Source of the DNA: Acidobacteriota bacterium
GTDB taxonomy: Bacteria; Acidobacteriota; Vicinamibacteria; Vicinamibacterales; UBA2999
DNA length: 40,732 bases
Direction of reading: 5' to 3'
NCBI GenBank assembly: GCA_022842985.1
Contig: JALHON010000006.1
Span: forward strand, 1 to 40,732
Both the position numbers and the translations under genes were made by a program. Shown one piece after another: positions 8 to 35,333 of the stretch. The stretch's first letter is position 1, and each line of letters opens with the position of its first letter. The notes beneath the pieces were generated by a model that was not told the origin of the DNA, made no database searches, and saw nothing but the letters and a program-made list of their open reading frames with translations.

Positions 8-1462
8 GTGCGTCAGCTGCTGAGCGAAGGGCTGGTGCTCGCCGCGGCGGGCGGCGTGGCCGGCGTGCTGCTCGCGGCCTGGGCCGGACAGCTCATCGGC
101 GCCTTCGCGACGAGCGTGCTGCCCATTCCGACCACCTTCGACTTCACGCTCGACCGCACGGTGCTGCTCTTTGCCGGCGTCGTGTCTGTCGTGACCGCGC
201 TGGTCTTCGGGCTGGCGCCAGCGTGGTCGGCGTCGCGGCCGGAACTCGTGCCCGCGCTCAAGGACTCGCTCGAATCGAGCGGCGGCACCGGCCGGCGCCG
301 CGTGACACTGCGCGACGCGCTGGTCGTGGGCCAGCTCGCGCTCTCGCTCGTGCTGCTCGTGTCGGGCGCGCTGCTCGCGCGTGGCCTTGTGGTGGCGCGG
401 GGTCTCGACCTCGGCTTCGATCCGTCGCGGGTTGCGTATCTCGTCTTCAGCCCGCAGATGAACGGCTACGACACCGACCGCGCGATGGCGCTCCGGGCGC
501 GGGCGCTCGACGCGGTGAAGGCCGTGCCGGGTGTGACGGCAGCGTCGCTCTCGACGCGCCTGCCGCTCGGGCCCGACATCAACATGAACAGCTACGCCGT
601 GCCCGGCCGTCACGATGCGGACGATGACGGCACGTCGGTGGATACGACGTACGTGGGTGCCGACTACTTCACCGTGATGGGCGTTCCGCTCGTGGACGGC
701 CGCGGCTTCACCGACGACGAAGCTACGAACGACCGCAGGGTGCTCGTGGTCAACGAGACCTTCGCGAAGACCTATTGCCCCGGCGAAAGTGCGGTGGGGC
801 GCGTGGTGCATCCGGGCGGCCTCGACCAGCCGGCGTTCACGATCGTCGGCGTGTCGCGCGATCACAAGGTGCGCTCGGCGGGTGAAGCGCCGATGCCCTA
901 TGCGCATCTGCCCATCGGCCGCGGACGGTCGATCGAACTCGTGGTGCGCACGGCCGGTCCGGCATCGGCGGCGATGCCGGCGCTGAAGCAGGCCGTGTGG
1001 GCGCTCGAACCGGATGCGGTCTTCACGGCGGAAGGCGCCGCCAGCGAGGCCGTGGAGGCCACGCTCGCGCCGACGCGTATCGGCGCGGCGATCATCGGTG
1101 CGGTGGGCGTGCTCGCGCTGCTGCTCGCGGCCGTGGGGCTCTACGGCGTCATCGCCTACTCGGTGAGCCTGCGCACGCGTGAGGTGGGCATCCGCCTGGC
1201 GCTCGGTGCCGAACGCGGTCAGGTGCTGCGCATGGTGCTCGGCCAGGGCGCGCGGCTCGCGCTCGTGGGCATCGGCCTTGGCGCCGCCCTCGCCGCCGCG
1301 GCGGCGAGTGTGCTGCAGTCGATGCTCTACGGCGTGAGCGCGGTCGATCCGCTGGCCTACGGCGCGGCGGCGCTATTGCTGCTGGTGGTGGCGCTCGCGG
1401 CCAATCTCGCGCCGGCGATCACGGCGTCGCGTGTGGCCCCGGCCACGGCCATCCGCGGGTAG
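8..1462 (+). CDS. ABC transporter permease, MacB/FtsX-like (ADOP family), 5' end probably outside window
   Basis: C-terminal FtsX-like permease motif (LRTREVGIRLALGAERGQVLRMVLGQGARLALVGIGLG) and MacB-like periplasmic core; begins at the window edge. Confidence 0.85.
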   Translation: MRQLLSEGLVLAAAGGVAGVLLAAWAGQLIGAFATSVLPIPTTFDFTLDRTVLLFAGVVSVVTALVFGLAPAWSASRPELVPALKDSLESSGGTGRRRVTLRDALVVGQLALSLVLLVSGALLARGLVVARGLDLGFDPSRVAYLVFSPQMNGYDTDRAMALRARALDAVKAVPGVTAASLSTRLPLGPDINMNSYAVPGRHDADDDGTSVDTTYVGADYFTVMGVPLVDGRGFTDDEATNDRRVLVVNETFAKTYCPGESAVGRVVHPGGLDQPAFTIVGVSRDHKVRSAGEAPMPYAHLPIGRGRSIELVVRTAGPASAAMPALKQAVWALEPDAVFTAEGAASEAVEATLAPTRIGAAIIGAVGVLALLLAAVGLYGVIAYSVSLRTREVGIRLALGAERGQVLRMVLGQGARLALVGIGLGAALAAAAASVLQSMLYGVSAVDPLAYGAAALLLLVVALAANLAPAITASRVAPATAIRG

Positions 1463-27936: not shown

Positions 27937-28482
27937 CTAGCGCTTCGGGATGCTGAGCTCGCCGAGCTTCGCGGCCACGTCGGGCCCCGCCGTCGAGACC
28001 TTCACCGACTTCTCGATGTGGAGGATCTTGCCGTCGATGCCGACGTAGAACGTCCAGCGGTTGGCCACACCGAACGAACCGAGCACGCCGTAGGCGGTCG
28101 CGGTGGCTTTGGTGGGATCGCCGAGGATGGGGTAGTCCGCCTCGACGTGCTGCGCGAACTTCGTGTTCTCTTCCGTGGTGTCTACGCTGGCGGCGAAGTA
28201 CGCCACCTGATACGCCCGAATCGCGTCGCCGCTCTCACGGAGCGACTTGCATTCGATCGTTCAACCACCGGTGAACGCTTTGGGGAACCACGCCAGGACC
28301 ACCGCGCTCTTGCCCTTGTACTCGGCGAGCGTGTGGGTCTTGCCGTCGGATCCGCGAAGCGAGAAGTTGGGGGCCTGATCGCCGACTTTGAGTTCCACGG
28401 TGTTCTGTGCGCGACCCAGGGCCGCGGCCGTCAGACTGAATGCCACGGTGAGCCCGAATTTCAGCCACTTGCCTACGCGCAT
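27937..28482 (-). CDS. Exported peroxiredoxin/redoxin selenoprotein, Sec encoded by in-frame TGA at 28261-28263 (codon 74)
   Basis: Two ORF-track pieces (28261..28554 and 27937..28206) share one frame; combined VGDQAPNFSLRGSDGKTHTLAEYKGKSAVVLAWFPKAFTGG-U-TIECKSLRESG...VAYFAASVDTTEENTKFAQHVEADYPILGD...; SD GGAGGAAAC before ATG. Confidence 0.85.
28228..28246 (-). promoter_or_regulatory. Candidate bacterial SECIS element
   Basis: mRNA GUCGCUC-CGUGA-GAGCGGC: 7-bp stem with one G-U pair, loop with G at position 2, loop begins 21 nt after the UGA. Confidence 0.7.
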
Positions 28483-28565
28483 GTTTCCTCCACGGCCCAT
28501 GGTAGCAGCACACGCCCCGGCTGGCGCCATGCCGTATTGCCGCGCCGAGCCCATATGATGGGACG

Positions 28566-31500
28566 GTGAGGCTGAAAGTCCCAGGCCGGCTCGCCTGGGC
28601 GGCCGCGGCGCTGGCCGCGCTCGTCGGGGCGGCGATCGTGCTCGTCCACACCCCGCCGGCGGCGCGCTGGGGCCGCGACTGGCTGGTGCGTCAGGTGGCG
28701 GCCCAGTTCCAGCTCGAACTGGCCACCAGCCGCCTCGCCGTGAACCTCTTCACGCGCCGCGTCACGCTCGACGACGTGCGCCGCGCCGCCGCCGGGCACG
28801 CCGGCGAACCCTTCTTCACGGCCCGCCGCCTCGAGGCCCGCCTGCCCTGGGCGGTCTTCCGCGGCACCGTGCGCGTGTCGATGCTCGAGGTGGACGACGC
28901 GCGCGTGTGGCTCGTGCGCGAAGGCGGCGCCATCGTGAACCTGCCGCCGCCGTCCGGCCAGCCGCCGCCGGCCGCGGCGCGCCGCTTCGATCTGCGCGGC
29001 CTGCGTGCCCGCAACCTCGCCGTGGACTACGAAGACCGCACCGGCGATGTCGACGTCTCGGTCTCGGCGCTGACGCTCTCGCTCGACGAACGCGACATCC
29101 GCATCTTCGCCGGCGCGAGCGGGACGATCGCCGCCGAACGGCTCCGCGTGCGGATGGGCGCGCACGAGACGACGAGCGCGCCGCTCAGCGGCCGCCTCGC
29201 CTTCGACGGCTCGAACGTGTCGCTGCAGGCGCTGACGGTGCCGCTGCCCGAAGGGCGCATCGTCGTCGACGGACGTGTCAACCGCGCGCTCGATGACCTC
29301 CGCTTCGCGCTCACGCTCGCCGGCTCGCTCGACTACGAGGCGCTCGCCGCGTGGACGCCGCCGCCGGTGCCGGTGAGCGGTGCCGGCGCGTTCGAGGGCA
29401 CGTTCGAGGGACCGCTCGGCGGCTACGAGCTGCGCGCGAACTTCACGGCGCCGGGGCTGCACATCGGCCGGGCGAGCGGCTTGCCGCTCGCCGGCACGAT
29501 CGCCATCACACCGCCACGCGCGCACGTCGAGACCTTTACGCTCACGGCGCCGCGCACCGCGGCCTCGCCCCGCGACGGCGTCGTCACCGGGCAGTTCACC
29601 TATGAATTCGGCCGCGGCGCGAGCGAACTCGTGGCCCGCTTCCGCGATCTCGATCTGGATGTGGCGCTTGCCGCCAACGACCAGGCGCCGACGACGTTCG
29701 CCGCCTGGCAGCGCGGCGACGTCACGCTGCGCCGCGCCTCGCCACAGGCGCCGATGCACCTCACCGCCTCGGGAACGAGCACCTTCCTGACCCGCGCCGA
29801 TCGCGTGGCCGTCGACGGCACGTGGCAGGCGACGCTGGCCGACGAACGCTGGTTCGTGCGCCACGATCACCGGCTGCTCGATACCGCGAGGGCCTACGGC
29901 ACGATGGCGTGGCCGGCGGCCGACGATCCGGCGCGAAGCGTGCTCTCCGGTCCGCTCACACTCCAGGTCACGGATGTCGGTCCGATGATCCGCGCGGCGC
30001 GCCGCTCGGGCATCAACCTCTCGACATCGCTCGATGGCGTGACCGGCCCGGCGCATGGCGACCTCGTGATGGACGGCAGCATGGCGCGGATGGTGATTCG
30101 CGGCCGTGTAGCCTCGGACGCGCTCGCGCTGTCCACCGGCGCGCCCGCCACGGCACTCGCCGATATCGTCTACGACGGCGACACGCTCGACGCGACGCAC
30201 TTCGAACTCACGACGCCGGGCGCGCGCATTGCCGGCAACGTGGCCATGGGCATGGTATCGGGCGCGCTCGCCGGCGCCTTCACCGCCGATGCCGATGATC
30301 TGCCGAGGCTCGCGGCGCCGTGGGCGTCGCTCACGGGCCTCACCGGCACGGCGCGCATGGCCGGCACGATCGGCGGCACGACGGCGGTGCCCGATGTGCC
30401 GTTCACCGCGCAGTCGACGCCGCTCGATCTCGACGGGCAGCACATCGGCACCGTGGATGTGGCGGCGCGGTTGCGCGGCACCGTCGTCGAGATCACGCGT
30501 GGCGCCGTCCAGCAGACGCCGGGCGTGCTGACGGCGACCGGCACGGTGGACTATCTGACCGGCGCCTACGATCTCGCCATCGACGGCACGTCGCTGCACT
30601 GGAAGAACCCGGTGGAAGGCGCGCCCATCAGTGCCGTGACGATGGACGTTGCCTTCGCGGGCGCCGGCACGTTCGAGGCGCCTGGTGGCAGCGGCACGCT
30701 CACCGCGACGCCCGTGGGCGGCTCGATCGGCGACTTCATCGGCGCCGCCGACGTGCGCTGGCAGTTCGCCGGCGGCGTGCTCAACACCACGGCCTTCCTG
30801 CCCTCGCTGCGCTCGTGGGCACAGGCCACCATCGAGCCGCGGGCGCCGTACGCCGTGCGCGGCGTGGCGGCGGTGAATGCGCTCGACGTGCAGCCCTTCG
30901 CGCTCGCGGCCGGCGCGTTGACGCAGGCCGTCACCGGCACCGTGGGCCTGAGCGCCGCCTTCGATGGCACGCTCGAGGATCCGGCGACGCTGCAGGCGTT
31001 CATCAACCTGCAGCAGGTCGCGCTGCTCGTCGGTGGCCTGCCAGTGACGCTCGATCGTCCGGCGCGCATCACGGCGCGCGTCGACGACTTCAGCGTGGAC
31101 GACCTGGCGCTCACCGTAGGCACGAGCGCACTCACGGCGTCCGGGCGCTTCCACGACACCAGTGACCGGCCGCTGCGCGCCGCATACGCTGGCAGCCTCT
31201 CGGACGTCGTCGCGCTCGGCCGCGCCGTGGGTGTCGCACCCGAGATCACGGCGACCGGCGGCCTCAACGCCACGTGGGAGAGCCGCGGCAGCCTCGCCAA
31301 CGCGCGCTCCACGGTCGAGGTCACCACGGCGTGGATCACGATGCCGGGCTATCCGCCGCTCCAGGCGCTCGATGCCTCGGCCACCTACGACGGCACGCTG
31401 CTGTCGCTCGACCGCCTGTCTGCCACGTGGCAGGGGGGCGCCATCGCGGCCACCGCGCGACTGCCGCGGCCACTGCTCGAAGCGGCGATGAACGGCAGCG

Positions 31501-34500
31501 CGGCGCCGGCCGGCGCGACCGGCCGTGTCGATGTCACCGTGAAGGGCCTCACGCACCAGGCGCTGCAGCCGTGGCTGCCGCCCGAGTCGCTGGCGCAGAT
31601 GGATGCCCGCGTGTCGGCCACGCTCGGGCTCGACGTGACGGCGCTCGCCCTCGACGGCGTGCGCGGCACGCTCGTGCTCGATGACGCGGCGCTCACCGCG
31701 GCCGGCGTCCCCATCACGCAGGTGCGGCCGGCGCGCATGTCGATTGCCGCCGGCACGCTGCGGTTCGATGACGTGGCCTTCAGCGCCGGCACGCCCGTGG
31801 TCATCGGCGGCACGGTGTCGTTCCGCGACGAGACCGTGCTCGATGTGACGCTCACCGGCACGCCGGGCCTGCGGCCGTTCTCGGTGCTGTCGCCCTCGAT
31901 GGCCGTGGATGGCGCCGCCACGCTCGACCTGCGCGTCACCGGCACGCCGCAGGCGCCGCTCGTCAATGGGCGCATCGATCTCGACGATGCCGAGATCGTG
32001 ATGCGCGATCCGCGCGTCATCGCCTCCGATATCTCCGGGCCGATCCTCTTTGCCGGCGATCGCGTGACGCTCGGCAATCTCAAGGGTTTCCTGAACGGCG
32101 GCGACTTCGAGGCGAGCGGCACGGCGCGCGTGCTCGGCGTGGATGTCGCCACCGGCGAGTTCACGCTGCAGGCGCGCGGCGTCGCCGTCGAGTATCCGAA
32201 GAACGTCGACAGCGAGATCGACGCGCTGCTCCAGTTCGCGCCCGGCGCCACGCCCACGCTCAAGGGCGACGTGCGCATCCTGCGCGGCGCCTACCGCGCC
32301 ACCATCAGCCTGCCGGCGCTCGTGGCGTTCAACGCCACCCGCACGGTGCCGCGTGTCGCGCCCGGCTATCTCGATCGACTGCAGCTCGATCTGTCGGTCT
32401 CGACCGAGGACGACATCATCATCGACAACAACTACGGCCGCTTCGAGGCCGGCGCCAACGTGCGCCTGCAGGGCACCGGCGCCAGGCCCGCGGTGACCGG
32501 CCGCGCCGAGCTGCGCGAGGGCGGCGAAGTATTCATGCTCGGCGGCCTCTACCGCCTCAACGAAAGCACCATCGCCTTCAGCAACCCCAACGCCATCGAG
32601 CCCGACATGAACATCTCGATGGTGACGCGCTCGAACGGCGCCGACCAGACGCTCACGCTGAGTGGCACGCTCGACAAGCTGCAGACGAGCGTCGTGTCGA
32701 GCGACCCGAACGCCAGCCCCAGCCTGGCCGCGCTCTTCGTGGGCGGCGACACCACGCTCGATCGCGGCGATGCGCTGCGGCTGCTGTCCGGAGAGCTGCT
32801 CGGTGTCACCGGCCGCGCCATCGGCCTCGACAGCCTGCGCCTCGAACGCGGCTTCAGCGGCGACGACGTGCGGCAGGACCCCGGCCTCGTCGCCGATCTC
32901 GGCCAGGACCCGGCGACACGGCTCACGCTGTCGAAGCAGCTGTCGTCGGACGTGGAAGTGGTGCTGTCGCAGGGGATCGGGCAGGGCGCGCTCTCGGGCT
33001 ACGTGACCTGGCGGCCGCTGCGCGGCGTGGAACTGCGCGGCACCTCGCTCGACAACACCGACCGCCTGCTCTCGGTGCGGCACGACATCTCGTTCGGCGG
33101 CGCGAAACTGCAGGCGGCGCCGCGGCGGGTGCTGGGGAAGGTCGCGGACGTGCGGTTCGCCGGCGCGCCGGCAGAAGACGAAGCGGCGCTGCGCGGCCGC
33201 CTGCGGCTCACCGCCGGCGAGACCTTCGACTTCATCCGCTGGCGCGATGACGTCGAACGTCTGCAGGCGTGGTACCGCGAGGGTGGCTTTCTCGAGGCGC
33301 GTGTGCGGGCCTCGCGCGCCGACCAGCCGGATGGACGGATCGCGCTCATCTACACGGTGGAGCGCGGGCCGGCCACCGAGCTCCGCGTGGAGGGGATGGA
33401 AGTGCCGGGCCGTCTGCGGCGGCAGCTCGAGAGCACGTGGTCGGACGCGGTGTTCGATCGGTTCCTGCTCGACGAGATCCAGTCGGCGCTGCAGTTCGAA
33501 CTCATCCGCCGCAACGTCGTCAACGCGCAGGTCGAGGCCGTCGTCAGCGCGAGCGACCCCGTGAAGGTGATTACCGCCACGGTGCGCAACGGCCAGGCCG
33601 CGACACGCCGGCGGATTCTGTACGACGGCGCCGTCACGCTGTCGCCGGCGCAGCTCGACGCCGAGGTCGGGGTGTGGGGGCTGCACGATTGGGGCTGGCT
33701 CTACCCGCCGTCCATCGCCAACGCGATCACGAACCGTTACGACGCCGAGGGGCGGCGGGCCGCGCGTGTGACGGCCGGTGAGCCGGTGGTGGTGGACGGA
33801 CAGGCGCTGCTCACGATGACCATCGACGAGGGCCCGCTCACGACGGTCGCGAGCGCCACGGTCACCGGCGCCGAGGGCGCCCTGGCCGACGGCGCGCAGG
33901 CGATCGTCGACGGCCTCATGGGACGCCCGTTCCGCTACGGCGAGGTGGACGCCGCCGCGCGTCAGGTCGAGGCCCGTTTCCGGACCGCCGGCTACAACAA
34001 CGTGCAGGTCGTGCCGCTCGTGACCGCGCCGCCCGACAGTGTCACGGCCGAAGTGCGCCTCGACATCACGCCGGGCCGGCAGCAGCGGCTCGCGCAGGTG
34101 CTCGTGAGCGGCGCCGACCGCACGCATCCGGGCGCGGTCGAGAGCGCCCTTGGCCTCGACAGCGGCGATCCGGTGAACTTCACGCAGTGGGCGCAGGCCC
34201 GTAAGCGCGTGTTCGACACCAACGTGTTCCGGCAGGTGGACGTGCGGCCGGAAGTGCTGCCCGAGCCGAACGCCGACGGCACGGAAGCCGTCAACGCACG
34301 CGTCACGGTGGCCGAGTGGCCGACGTGGCGGCTCCGCTACGGTCTGCAGCTCGACGATCGCAGTCAGCTGGAGCAGGGCGACGACACGTCGCTGGCCCGC
34401 CGCCGCGACCTCGGCGTGGTCGGTAACCTGCAGAACCGCAACGTCTTCGGGCGGGCCTTCACCTTCGGCGTCTTCGGCCAGGTGGCGCGCAGTCTGCGGT

Positions 34501-35333
34501 CGGGCAACACCTACCTGACGTTCCCGACGCTGTTCGGCCGGGCGGTGCAGACGAACGTCTTCGCCGGGGCGTCGCGCCAGGACGTGCCGCTCGACGACAC
34601 CGAGGAGTTCTTTCTCCGGCGCGAGCGCATGCAGCTGTCGCTCGAGCAGCGGATTCGCCGCGGCCGCGCGCTCGAGATCGCCTACGGGTATCGTCTCAAG
34701 CGTGAGGTGCTCGACGCCCTGGACCCCGACGATCCGTTCTATCTCGCGCCGCTCACCGGCCGCTTCACGGGCACCGCGTTCGTCGACCGGCGTGACGATC
34801 CGTTCAACGCCTCGCGCGGCTGGTTCGGGTCGTTCAACGCCGAACGGGTCACCGAGTTCGAGTCGAACGAAGACGCCATCAAGGTGCAGGGCACGTATCA
34901 CCGCTATCAGGCCGTGGGGCCGGTGGTGCTGGCGTCGGCAGCGCGTGTGGGCGGGTCGTTTCTGAGCCCGCTCTCATTCGGCGAGCGGTTCTTCCTCGGC
35001 GGCGCGGATACGGTGCGCGGCTACGGCGAGAGCCTGATCGGCCCGAAGACGTTCACCGGGTCGGCGCGCGGCGGCAACGCGCTGCTCATCCTGAACCAGG
35101 AAGTGCGCGTGCCGCTCTATCGCTGGATTCGCGGTGTGGCGTTCGTGGATGCCGGGAACGTCTTCGAGGCGAATTCGGCGCTCAGCGTCACCGATCTCGA
35201 GGTGGGCTACGGCGTAGGCCTGCGGCTGCACACGCCGTTCTCGATCTTCCGCGTGGACCTCGGCATTCCGGCCAATGGCGCGGCCGGCCAGCGCGCGAAG
35301 CGCTGGTATTTCGGCCTGGGACACATCTTCTAG
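28566..35333 (+). CDS. TamB-TamA/BamA fusion: AsmA/TamB (DUF490) region + POTRA domains + Omp85 beta-barrel
   Basis: N-terminal TM anchor (LAWAAAALAALVGAAIVLVHT); TamB C-terminal block (EDDIIIDNNYGRFEAGANVRLQGT...GGEVFMLGGLYRLNESTIAFSNP); POTRA-like segments from about nt 33130; barrel ending in aromatic ...KRWYFGLGHIF. Confidence 0.88.
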   Translation: MRLKVPGRLAWAAAALAALVGAAIVLVHTPPAARWGRDWLVRQVAAQFQLELATSRLAVNLFTRRVTLDDVRRAAAGHAGEPFFTARRLEARLPWAVFRGTVRVSMLEVDDARVWLVREGGAIVNLPPPSGQPPPAAARRFDLRGLRARNLAVDYEDRTGDVDVSVSALTLSLDERDIRIFAGASGTIAAERLRVRMGAHETTSAPLSGRLAFDGSNVSLQALTVPLPEGRIVVDGRVNRALDDLRFALTLAGSLDYEALAAWTPPPVPVSGAGAFEGTFEGPLGGYELRANFTAPGLHIGRASGLPLAGTIAITPPRAHVETFTLTAPRTAASPRDGVVTGQFTYEFGRGASELVARFRDLDLDVALAANDQAPTTFAAWQRGDVTLRRASPQAPMHLTASGTSTFLTRADRVAVDGTWQATLADERWFVRHDHRLLDTARAYGTMAWPAADDPARSVLSGPLTLQVTDVGPMIRAARRSGINLSTSLDGVTGPAHGDLVMDGSMARMVIRGRVASDALALSTGAPATALADIVYDGDTLDATHFELTTPGARIAGNVAMGMVSGALAGAFTADADDLPRLAAPWASLTGLTGTARMAGTIGGTTAVPDVPFTAQSTPLDLDGQHIGTVDVAARLRGTVVEITRGAVQQTPGVLTATGTVDYLTGAYDLAIDGTSLHWKNPVEGAPISAVTMDVAFAGAGTFEAPGGSGTLTATPVGGSIGDFIGAADVRWQFAGGVLNTTAFLPSLRSWAQATIEPRAPYAVRGVAAVNALDVQPFALAAGALTQAVTGTVGLSAAFDGTLEDPATLQAFINLQQVALLVGGLPVTLDRPARITARVDDFSVDDLALTVGTSALTASGRFHDTSDRPLRAAYAGSLSDVVALGRAVGVAPEITATGGLNATWESRGSLANARSTVEVTTAWITMPGYPPLQALDASATYDGTLLSLDRLSATWQGGAIAATARLPRPLLEAAMNGSAAPAGATGRVDVTVKGLTHQALQPWLPPESLAQMDARVSATLGLDVTALALDGVRGTLVLDDAALTAAGVPITQVRPARMSIAAGTLRFDDVAFSAGTPVVIGGTVSFRDETVLDVTLTGTPGLRPFSVLSPSMAVDGAATLDLRVTGTPQAPLVNGRIDLDDAEIVMRDPRVIASDISGPILFAGDRVTLGNLKGFLNGGDFEASGTARVLGVDVATGEFTLQARGVAVEYPKNVDSEIDALLQFAPGATPTLKGDVRILRGAYRATISLPALVAFNATRTVPRVAPGYLDRLQLDLSVSTEDDIIIDNNYGRFEAGANVRLQGTGARPAVTGRAELREGGEVFMLGGLYRLNESTIAFSNPNAIEPDMNISMVTRSNGADQTLTLSGTLDKLQTSVVSSDPNASPSLAALFVGGDTTLDRGDALRLLSGELLGVTGRAIGLDSLRLERGFSGDDVRQDPGLVADLGQDPATRLTLSKQLSSDVEVVLSQGIGQGALSGYVTWRPLRGVELRGTSLDNTDRLLSVRHDISFGGAKLQAAPRRVLGKVADVRFAGAPAEDEAALRGRLRLTAGETFDFIRWRDDVERLQAWYREGGFLEARVRASRADQPDGRIALIYTVERGPATELRVEGMEVPGRLRRQLESTWSDAVFDRFLLDEIQSALQFELIRRNVVNAQVEAVVSASDPVKVITATVRNGQAATRRRILYDGAVTLSPAQLDAEVGVWGLHDWGWLYPPSIANAITNRYDAEGRRAARVTAGEPVVVDGQALLTMTIDEGPLTTVASATVTGAEGALADGAQAIVDGLMGRPFRYGEVDAAARQVEARFRTAGYNNVQVVPLVTAPPDSVTAEVRLDITPGRQQRLAQVLVSGADRTHPGAVESALGLDSGDPVNFTQWAQARKRVFDTNVFRQVDVRPEVLPEPNADGTEAVNARVTVAEWPTWRLRYGLQLDDRSQLEQGDDTSLARRRDLGVVGNLQNRNVFGRAFTFGVFGQVARSLRSGNTYLTFPTLFGRAVQTNVFAGASRQDVPLDDTEEFFLRRERMQLSLEQRIRRGRALEIAYGYRLKREVLDALDPDDPFYLAPLTGRFTGTAFVDRRDDPFNASRGWFGSFNAERVTEFESNEDAIKVQGTYHRYQAVGPVVLASAARVGGSFLSPLSFGERFFLGGADTVRGYGESLIGPKTFTGSARGGNALLILNQEVRVPLYRWIRGVAFVDAGNVFEANSALSVTDLEVGYGVGLRLHTPFSIFRVDLGIPANGAAGQRAKRWYFGLGHIF

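Follow-up and report, generated by a model that had tools for sequence, protein, structure and literature searches.

A single gene in the stretch of DNA analysed here (the window: 40,732 nucleotides of contig JALHON010000006.1, from an Acidobacteriota assembly, GCA_022842985.1, that is a fragmented draft of 469 contigs) joins a TamB-like protein to an Omp85-type outer-membrane barrel in one polypeptide. The fused TamB-Omp85 gene (28566..35333, + strand) is one open reading frame (ORF) with a GTG start, 2255 codons and no internal stop, and it has full-length relatives. We consider it likely that its product, which would measure ~240 kDa when intact, is a translocation and assembly module (TAM) that occurs naturally as a single chain and whose function would most likely be lipid transfer and/or the insertion of outer-membrane proteins (OMPs). 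The model that we favor is as follows. The chain would be exported by Sec, with an uncleaved N-terminal anchor keeping it attached to the inner membrane, and a separate BamA would insert the C-terminal barrel. The inserted protein, probably reaching as a single chain across from the inner membrane to the outer, would then bridge the envelope permanently and guide phospholipids outward, and the barrel may also aid the insertion of some OMPs. The covalent join would fix a 1:1 stoichiometry and make docking unnecessary. The fusion would work beside a separate tamB-omp85 pair in the genome of the window, and as the only TamB in several families.

Pfam profiles recognize both halves: TamB (PF04357, DUF490) at residues 1176-1473 (32091..32984, +; 68.3 bits against a cut-off of 22.4, E 9.4e-19), POTRA (PF07244) at residues 1525-1601 (69.3 bits against 21.3) and Omp85 (PF01103) at residues 1959-2255 (123.5 bits against 24). 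The original prediction of an uninterrupted TamB-TamA fusion, read from the letters of the DNA, would have been undone by a failure of domain searches to find DUF490 or Omp85, or by a stop codon or frameshift separating the halves; both domains are present, and dozens of independent assemblies hold no such interruption. The content in guanine and cytosine (GC) at codon positions 1, 2 and 3 (0.72, 0.53 and 0.91) marks the + strand frame as the real gene. An antisense ORF of 2142 amino acids (28473-34901, −) covers nearly the whole of it and is best explained as its high-GC shadow.

AlphaFold models were built from 26 related sequences, separately for an N-terminal and a C-terminal piece. The N-terminal piece (mean predicted local distance difference test, pLDDT, of 87) starts with two helices, at residues 8-27 (28587..28646, +) and 30-48 (+), followed by strands without a break to its end. 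The first helix coincides with a hydrophobic stretch and is the predicted membrane anchor, as anticipated for the N-terminus, with low pLDDT over the first nine residues. Beyond the helices the models and the strand alternation point to a continuous, beta-rich AsmA/TamB-like sheet, or beta-taco, over residues ~50-1378 (~1,330 residues; 28713..32699, +), and hydrophobic and polar residues alternate in the strands along the entire TamB half (z 4.1-8.2 against shuffles). Together with the Pfam TamB match these features bear out the predicted AsmA/TamB-like stretch and its DUF490-type block, and an N-terminal anchor with a long beta-rich groove, as expected of a TamB protein, appears to be present. 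DUF748 (41.3 bits against a cut-off of 50) and AsmA (15.4 against 29.8) stay below threshold at the N-terminus in Pfam, and the NCBIfam equivalog for proteobacterial TamB, NF047952, scores 19.2 bits against a cut-off of 825. The TamB part matches the TamB chains of the solved TamA-TamB entries 9xdc and 23sp. Its C-terminal strands, corresponding to the "pseudosubstrate" part, occupy residues 1452-1511 (32919..33098, +) in the model and end in a conserved RHxxxFG strand. DUF490 is not at the C-terminus of this protein: 744 residues, comprising linker, POTRAs and barrel, follow residue 1511.

In the C-terminal piece (mean pLDDT 75) the end of the sheet and the TamB strands lead into five beta-alpha-alpha-beta-beta units at residues 1525-1917 and exactly 16 barrel strands. 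All on the + strand, the units are POTRA 1 (residues 1525-1599, 33138..33362), which is also the Pfam match, POTRA 2 (1603-1674, 33372..33587), matched by TIGR03303, POTRA 3 (1681-1754, 33606..33827), POTRA 4 (1760-1835, 33843..34070), with a weak POTRA_2 match, and POTRA 5 (1840-1917, 34083..34316). The 16-strand Omp85 barrel (residues 1921-2255, 34326..35330, +), supported by Pfam, the model and Foldseek matches to BamA and TamA, ends in phenylalanine and carries the VRGY motif of the family at residues 2150-2153 (35013..35024, +).

What kind of Omp85 protein is the second half? A 16-strand barrel, the VRGY motif and at least one POTRA place it in the Omp85 superfamily. Its sequence relatives in the PDB are BamA and TamA, and the closest solved relatives by both fold (Foldseek) and sequence are BamA. 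Five POTRAs agree with BamA and disagree with the three of TamA; the scores fall far short of both equivalog models (68.3 bits against a cut-off of 625 for TamA, NF047950; 157.4 against 297 for BamA, TIGR03303), and the half lies outside the BamA clade. We therefore reject an identity with TamA on POTRA count, score and tree, and an identity with BamA on score and tree. From its sequence, we assign the half to an acidobacterial "TamB-partner" clade of Omp85 proteins rather than to true TamA, and class the fused protein as a Pfam TamB member joined to an Omp85 superfamily member that is, by the NCBIfam models, neither TamA nor a BamA orthologue. Thus TamB, POTRAs and an Omp85 barrel do share one chain as predicted, but the label TamA was too specific, because the half has five POTRAs, lies far below the equivalog cut-offs and groups with acidobacterial Omp85 proteins encoded directly after tamB.

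The fusion is widespread in its phylum. A junction-spanning profile run on 396 Acidobacteriota genomes matched TamB and POTRA1 in a single ORF in at least 76 genomes from 30 families, which answers in the affirmative whether DUF490 and Omp85 co-occur in one protein elsewhere. Each of 20 matched loci examined holds a fused ORF (20/20), nearly all matching the family profile over almost its whole length, and one lies on a closed chromosome of 5.985 Mb (G147, locus L112). Relatives always occupy one open frame, except at contig ends; full-length identity is 90, 73 and 58% within the genus and 27-41% across the family and order. The relatives with names belong to uncultured Acidobacteriota, chiefly Vicinamibacterales. 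A degenerate pattern search of contigs returned 28 records, all titled Acidobacteria or its lineages save two with other bin names; it gave no fusion outside Acidobacteriota apart from those two oddly named bins, and the genome sampling was of this phylum. Some genomes carry a second, divergent fused copy (G001:C4, G004:C14, G028:C22, G038:C163 and G075:C98).

The genome of the window also contains a separate, overlapping tamB-Omp85 pair (contig C219), so that the fusion is an extra copy there, and a BamA (contig C136). In six of seven separate pairs checked, the C219 pair included, the stop codon of tamB overlaps the start codon of the Omp85 gene in the sequence TGATG, and a signal-peptide-like stretch opens the partner Omp85. 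The tamB-first order, reversed relative to E. coli, was predicted correctly but is not special to the fusion, being found also in two-gene operons of this genome and of its relatives. A check of the genome for separate genes likewise has two outcomes: the fusion is additional here and, in other families, constitutes the sole TamB. It is the only Pfam-detectable TamB in 15 genomes from seven families, which speaks for its taking the place of TamB, and gene content suggests that in these bacteria it probably supplies whatever TamB does. Besides the fusion, the closed genome G147 encodes a BamA-like protein, along with Omp85 matches that are more distant.

Fused Omp85 halves and the partners of separate TamB proteins form one clade (98.7% SH-like approximate likelihood ratio test, SH-aLRT), to which neither the acidobacterial BamA clade nor E. 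coli BamA and TamA belong. The trees are quick ones without bootstrap, and long branches make the exact placement of the E. coli sequences unsure. Within the partner clade, the separate partners fall beside one fused subgroup in the Omp85 tree; constraining the fused sequences together is not rejected (approximately unbiased test, p-AU 0.309), and in the TamB half a weakly supported branch (61%) sets them all to one side. Since the same two fused subgroups are recovered from the TamB half and from the Omp85 half, the two halves appear to share one line of inheritance, as a single unit would. The fusion probably arose from a tamB-omp85 tandem. The trees are compatible with one fusion followed by a split and with two fusions, and a fission producing the separate pair is equally possible. 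Two genomes, G075 and G030, have 12 and 11 Omp85 family matches, including proteins of ~650 residues that fall mostly in a clade of their own.

How does such an arrangement compare with known systems? In E. coli, a cryo-electron microscopy study describes TamAB as a 1:1 complex with lipid-like density in the TamB groove and with TamB contacting all three TamA POTRAs; in about half of the particles the last TamB strand pairs with TamA strand 1 and three more lie inside the barrel (PMC12800296). The fusion, known from sequence and models, is similar in bringing a TamB beta-taco to Omp85 POTRAs at 1:1. Unlike it, E. coli TAM consists of two proteins in the order tamA-tamB, its TamA has three POTRAs, and the C-terminus of its TamB, being free, inserts into the barrel of TamA; the C-terminal TamB strand of the fusion is instead tied to POTRA1. 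The separate acidobacterial operon (such as that on C219; the "second BamA" of Heinz et al. 2015, PMC4494059) shares phylum, gene order and Omp85 clade with the fusion but consists of two genes overlapping at TGATG, the Omp85 having its own signal peptide. The BamA-TamB hybrid complex of Borrelia likewise pairs TamB with a five-POTRA, BamA-type protein; there the proteins are separate, contacts are reported at POTRA2-3 and TamB strands are modeled completing the barrel (PMC13382580, PMC11361582). The long MlaD of Veillonella parvula is also proposed to connect, as one polypeptide, the inner membrane with a barrel in the outer membrane for phospholipid traffic, but with an MCE domain, an unrelated barrel and proposed retrograde transport (PMC10665443). 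Extra N-terminal modules on an Omp85 barrel are known from WD40-Omp85 and PlpD, and none of the ten Omp85 subfamilies is described as having a TamB half in the passages found by keyword (PMC4104836). Papers on TAM evolution and Omp85 architecture (PMC4494059, PMC4104836, PMC11014939) describe acidobacterial two-gene operons and, in the same passages, no TamB-Omp85 fusion; nor did we find a report of one elsewhere in a literature search by keyword in which subscription papers were largely outside reach.

The junction sets the fusion apart. A linker of 13 residues (33099..33137, +) leads, according to the model and conservation, from the last TamB strand to POTRA1 without a signal peptide; the first POTRA1 strand is modeled from residue 1525, at nucleotide 33138, close to the position of about 33130 at which POTRA-like sequence had been predicted to start. 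The linker measures 11-24 residues in relatives and is variable in sequence, with low conservation. In separate TamB proteins the C-terminal strand (RVRHAF or RKRVAF, then a stop) takes the same position as the RHxxxFGG strand of the fusions. Tethering that strand to POTRA1 by 11-24 residues should restrict a hybrid barrel of the E. coli type. At ~3.5 angstrom per residue the 13-residue linker would reach at most ~45 angstrom, and it sits at the far end of the five-POTRA arm, so by this estimate pairing of the last strand with the barrel of the same molecule looks unlikely unless the arm curls back, as it may, given that a ring-like POTRA arm has been modeled for Borrelia (PMC13382580). It is conceivable, and we suggest it tentatively as somewhat short of probable, that the one-piece TAM functions without a hybrid barrel: the tether would keep the last strand from the lateral gate of its own barrel, with delivery needing no strand insertion or the strand pairing in trans with the barrel of another molecule. 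If this is true, such an arrangement would suffice for growth, given that the fusion is the only TamB in several families.

Several observations weigh against a single-chain TAM of this design. Foldseek did not find the N-terminal half of solved full-length TamB with the model; the best match was ApoB100, at a low TM-score. The region between TamB and the POTRAs is of low confidence: the unbroken N-terminal sheet of a beta-taco continuing into the POTRAs is seen, but much of residues ~1372-1461 has pLDDT below 50, and the models consequently do not fix the relative placing of the two halves. The conserved neighbors, a peroxiredoxin and a TPR protein, point to neither lipid nor OMP work, and the literature search found no experiment on any member of the fusion family. 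The fusion could also be cut in vivo into two proteins.

A purely OMP-directed role, in which the TamB part would act as a tether or chaperone surface feeding or pushing substrates to the barrel and lipid flow would be minor or absent, is in our view rather unlikely. The retention of POTRAs, 16 strands and the VRGY motif, the closeness to BamA among solved structures and the in vitro assembly of OMPs by E. coli TAM (PMC11341756) all speak for it, but the genome has its separate BamA on C136, the TamB half bears the hydrophobic groove signature throughout, and the literature linking TamB to lipid transport is strong (PMC8912898, PMC12800296). We regard as improbable that the protein is a polyprotein cut at the linker after translocation into an ordinary two-protein TAM, the fusion only securing equal amounts. 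A short, variable, poorly conserved linker would suit such processing, which would also free the TamB C-terminus for an E. coli-type hybrid barrel; against it, the linker shows no conserved cleavage motif, and the POTRA part of fused proteins starts without a signal peptide and hence could be exported only as a piece of the fusion. That a sequencing error or chimeric contig joined two genes in a fragmented assembly has next to no probability and is rejected, because dozens of independent assemblies, at 27-91% identity, and a closed chromosome show the same stop-free join.

On the single-chain reading, a contact geometry fixed by nature in one polypeptide argues strongly that this Omp85 and TamB work together as one machine, and the TAM of Acidobacteriota would differ from the proteobacterial model. 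The fusion bears on the way TamB passes lipids or proteins on to the outer membrane, as well as on whether insertion of its last strand into a partner barrel is essential, and being one polypeptide it could be purified intact.

The fusion shares an operon with neither of its neighbors, and the conserved neighborhood gave no functional clue to it. Upstream and divergent lies an AhpC/TSA peroxiredoxin gene (27937-28482, −) with an in-frame TGA at 28261-28263, at the position of the peroxidatic cysteine (KAFTGG-U-TIEC). All relatives with a recognizable motif have the TGA at that same site, and the genome encodes SelA; the codon probably encodes selenocysteine, judging from these sequences. A tRNA-Sec was not found in the draft genome of the window, the best match being tRNA-Ser(UGA). 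Downstream and convergent is a gene for a secreted TPR protein (35478 to ~36089, −) whose start resembles a signal peptide and which lacks an obvious lipobox. It is convergent to the fusion in four genomes of the order, the counterparts in relatives lying at L140:2723-3328, L141:15730-16365 and L046:11189-11821.

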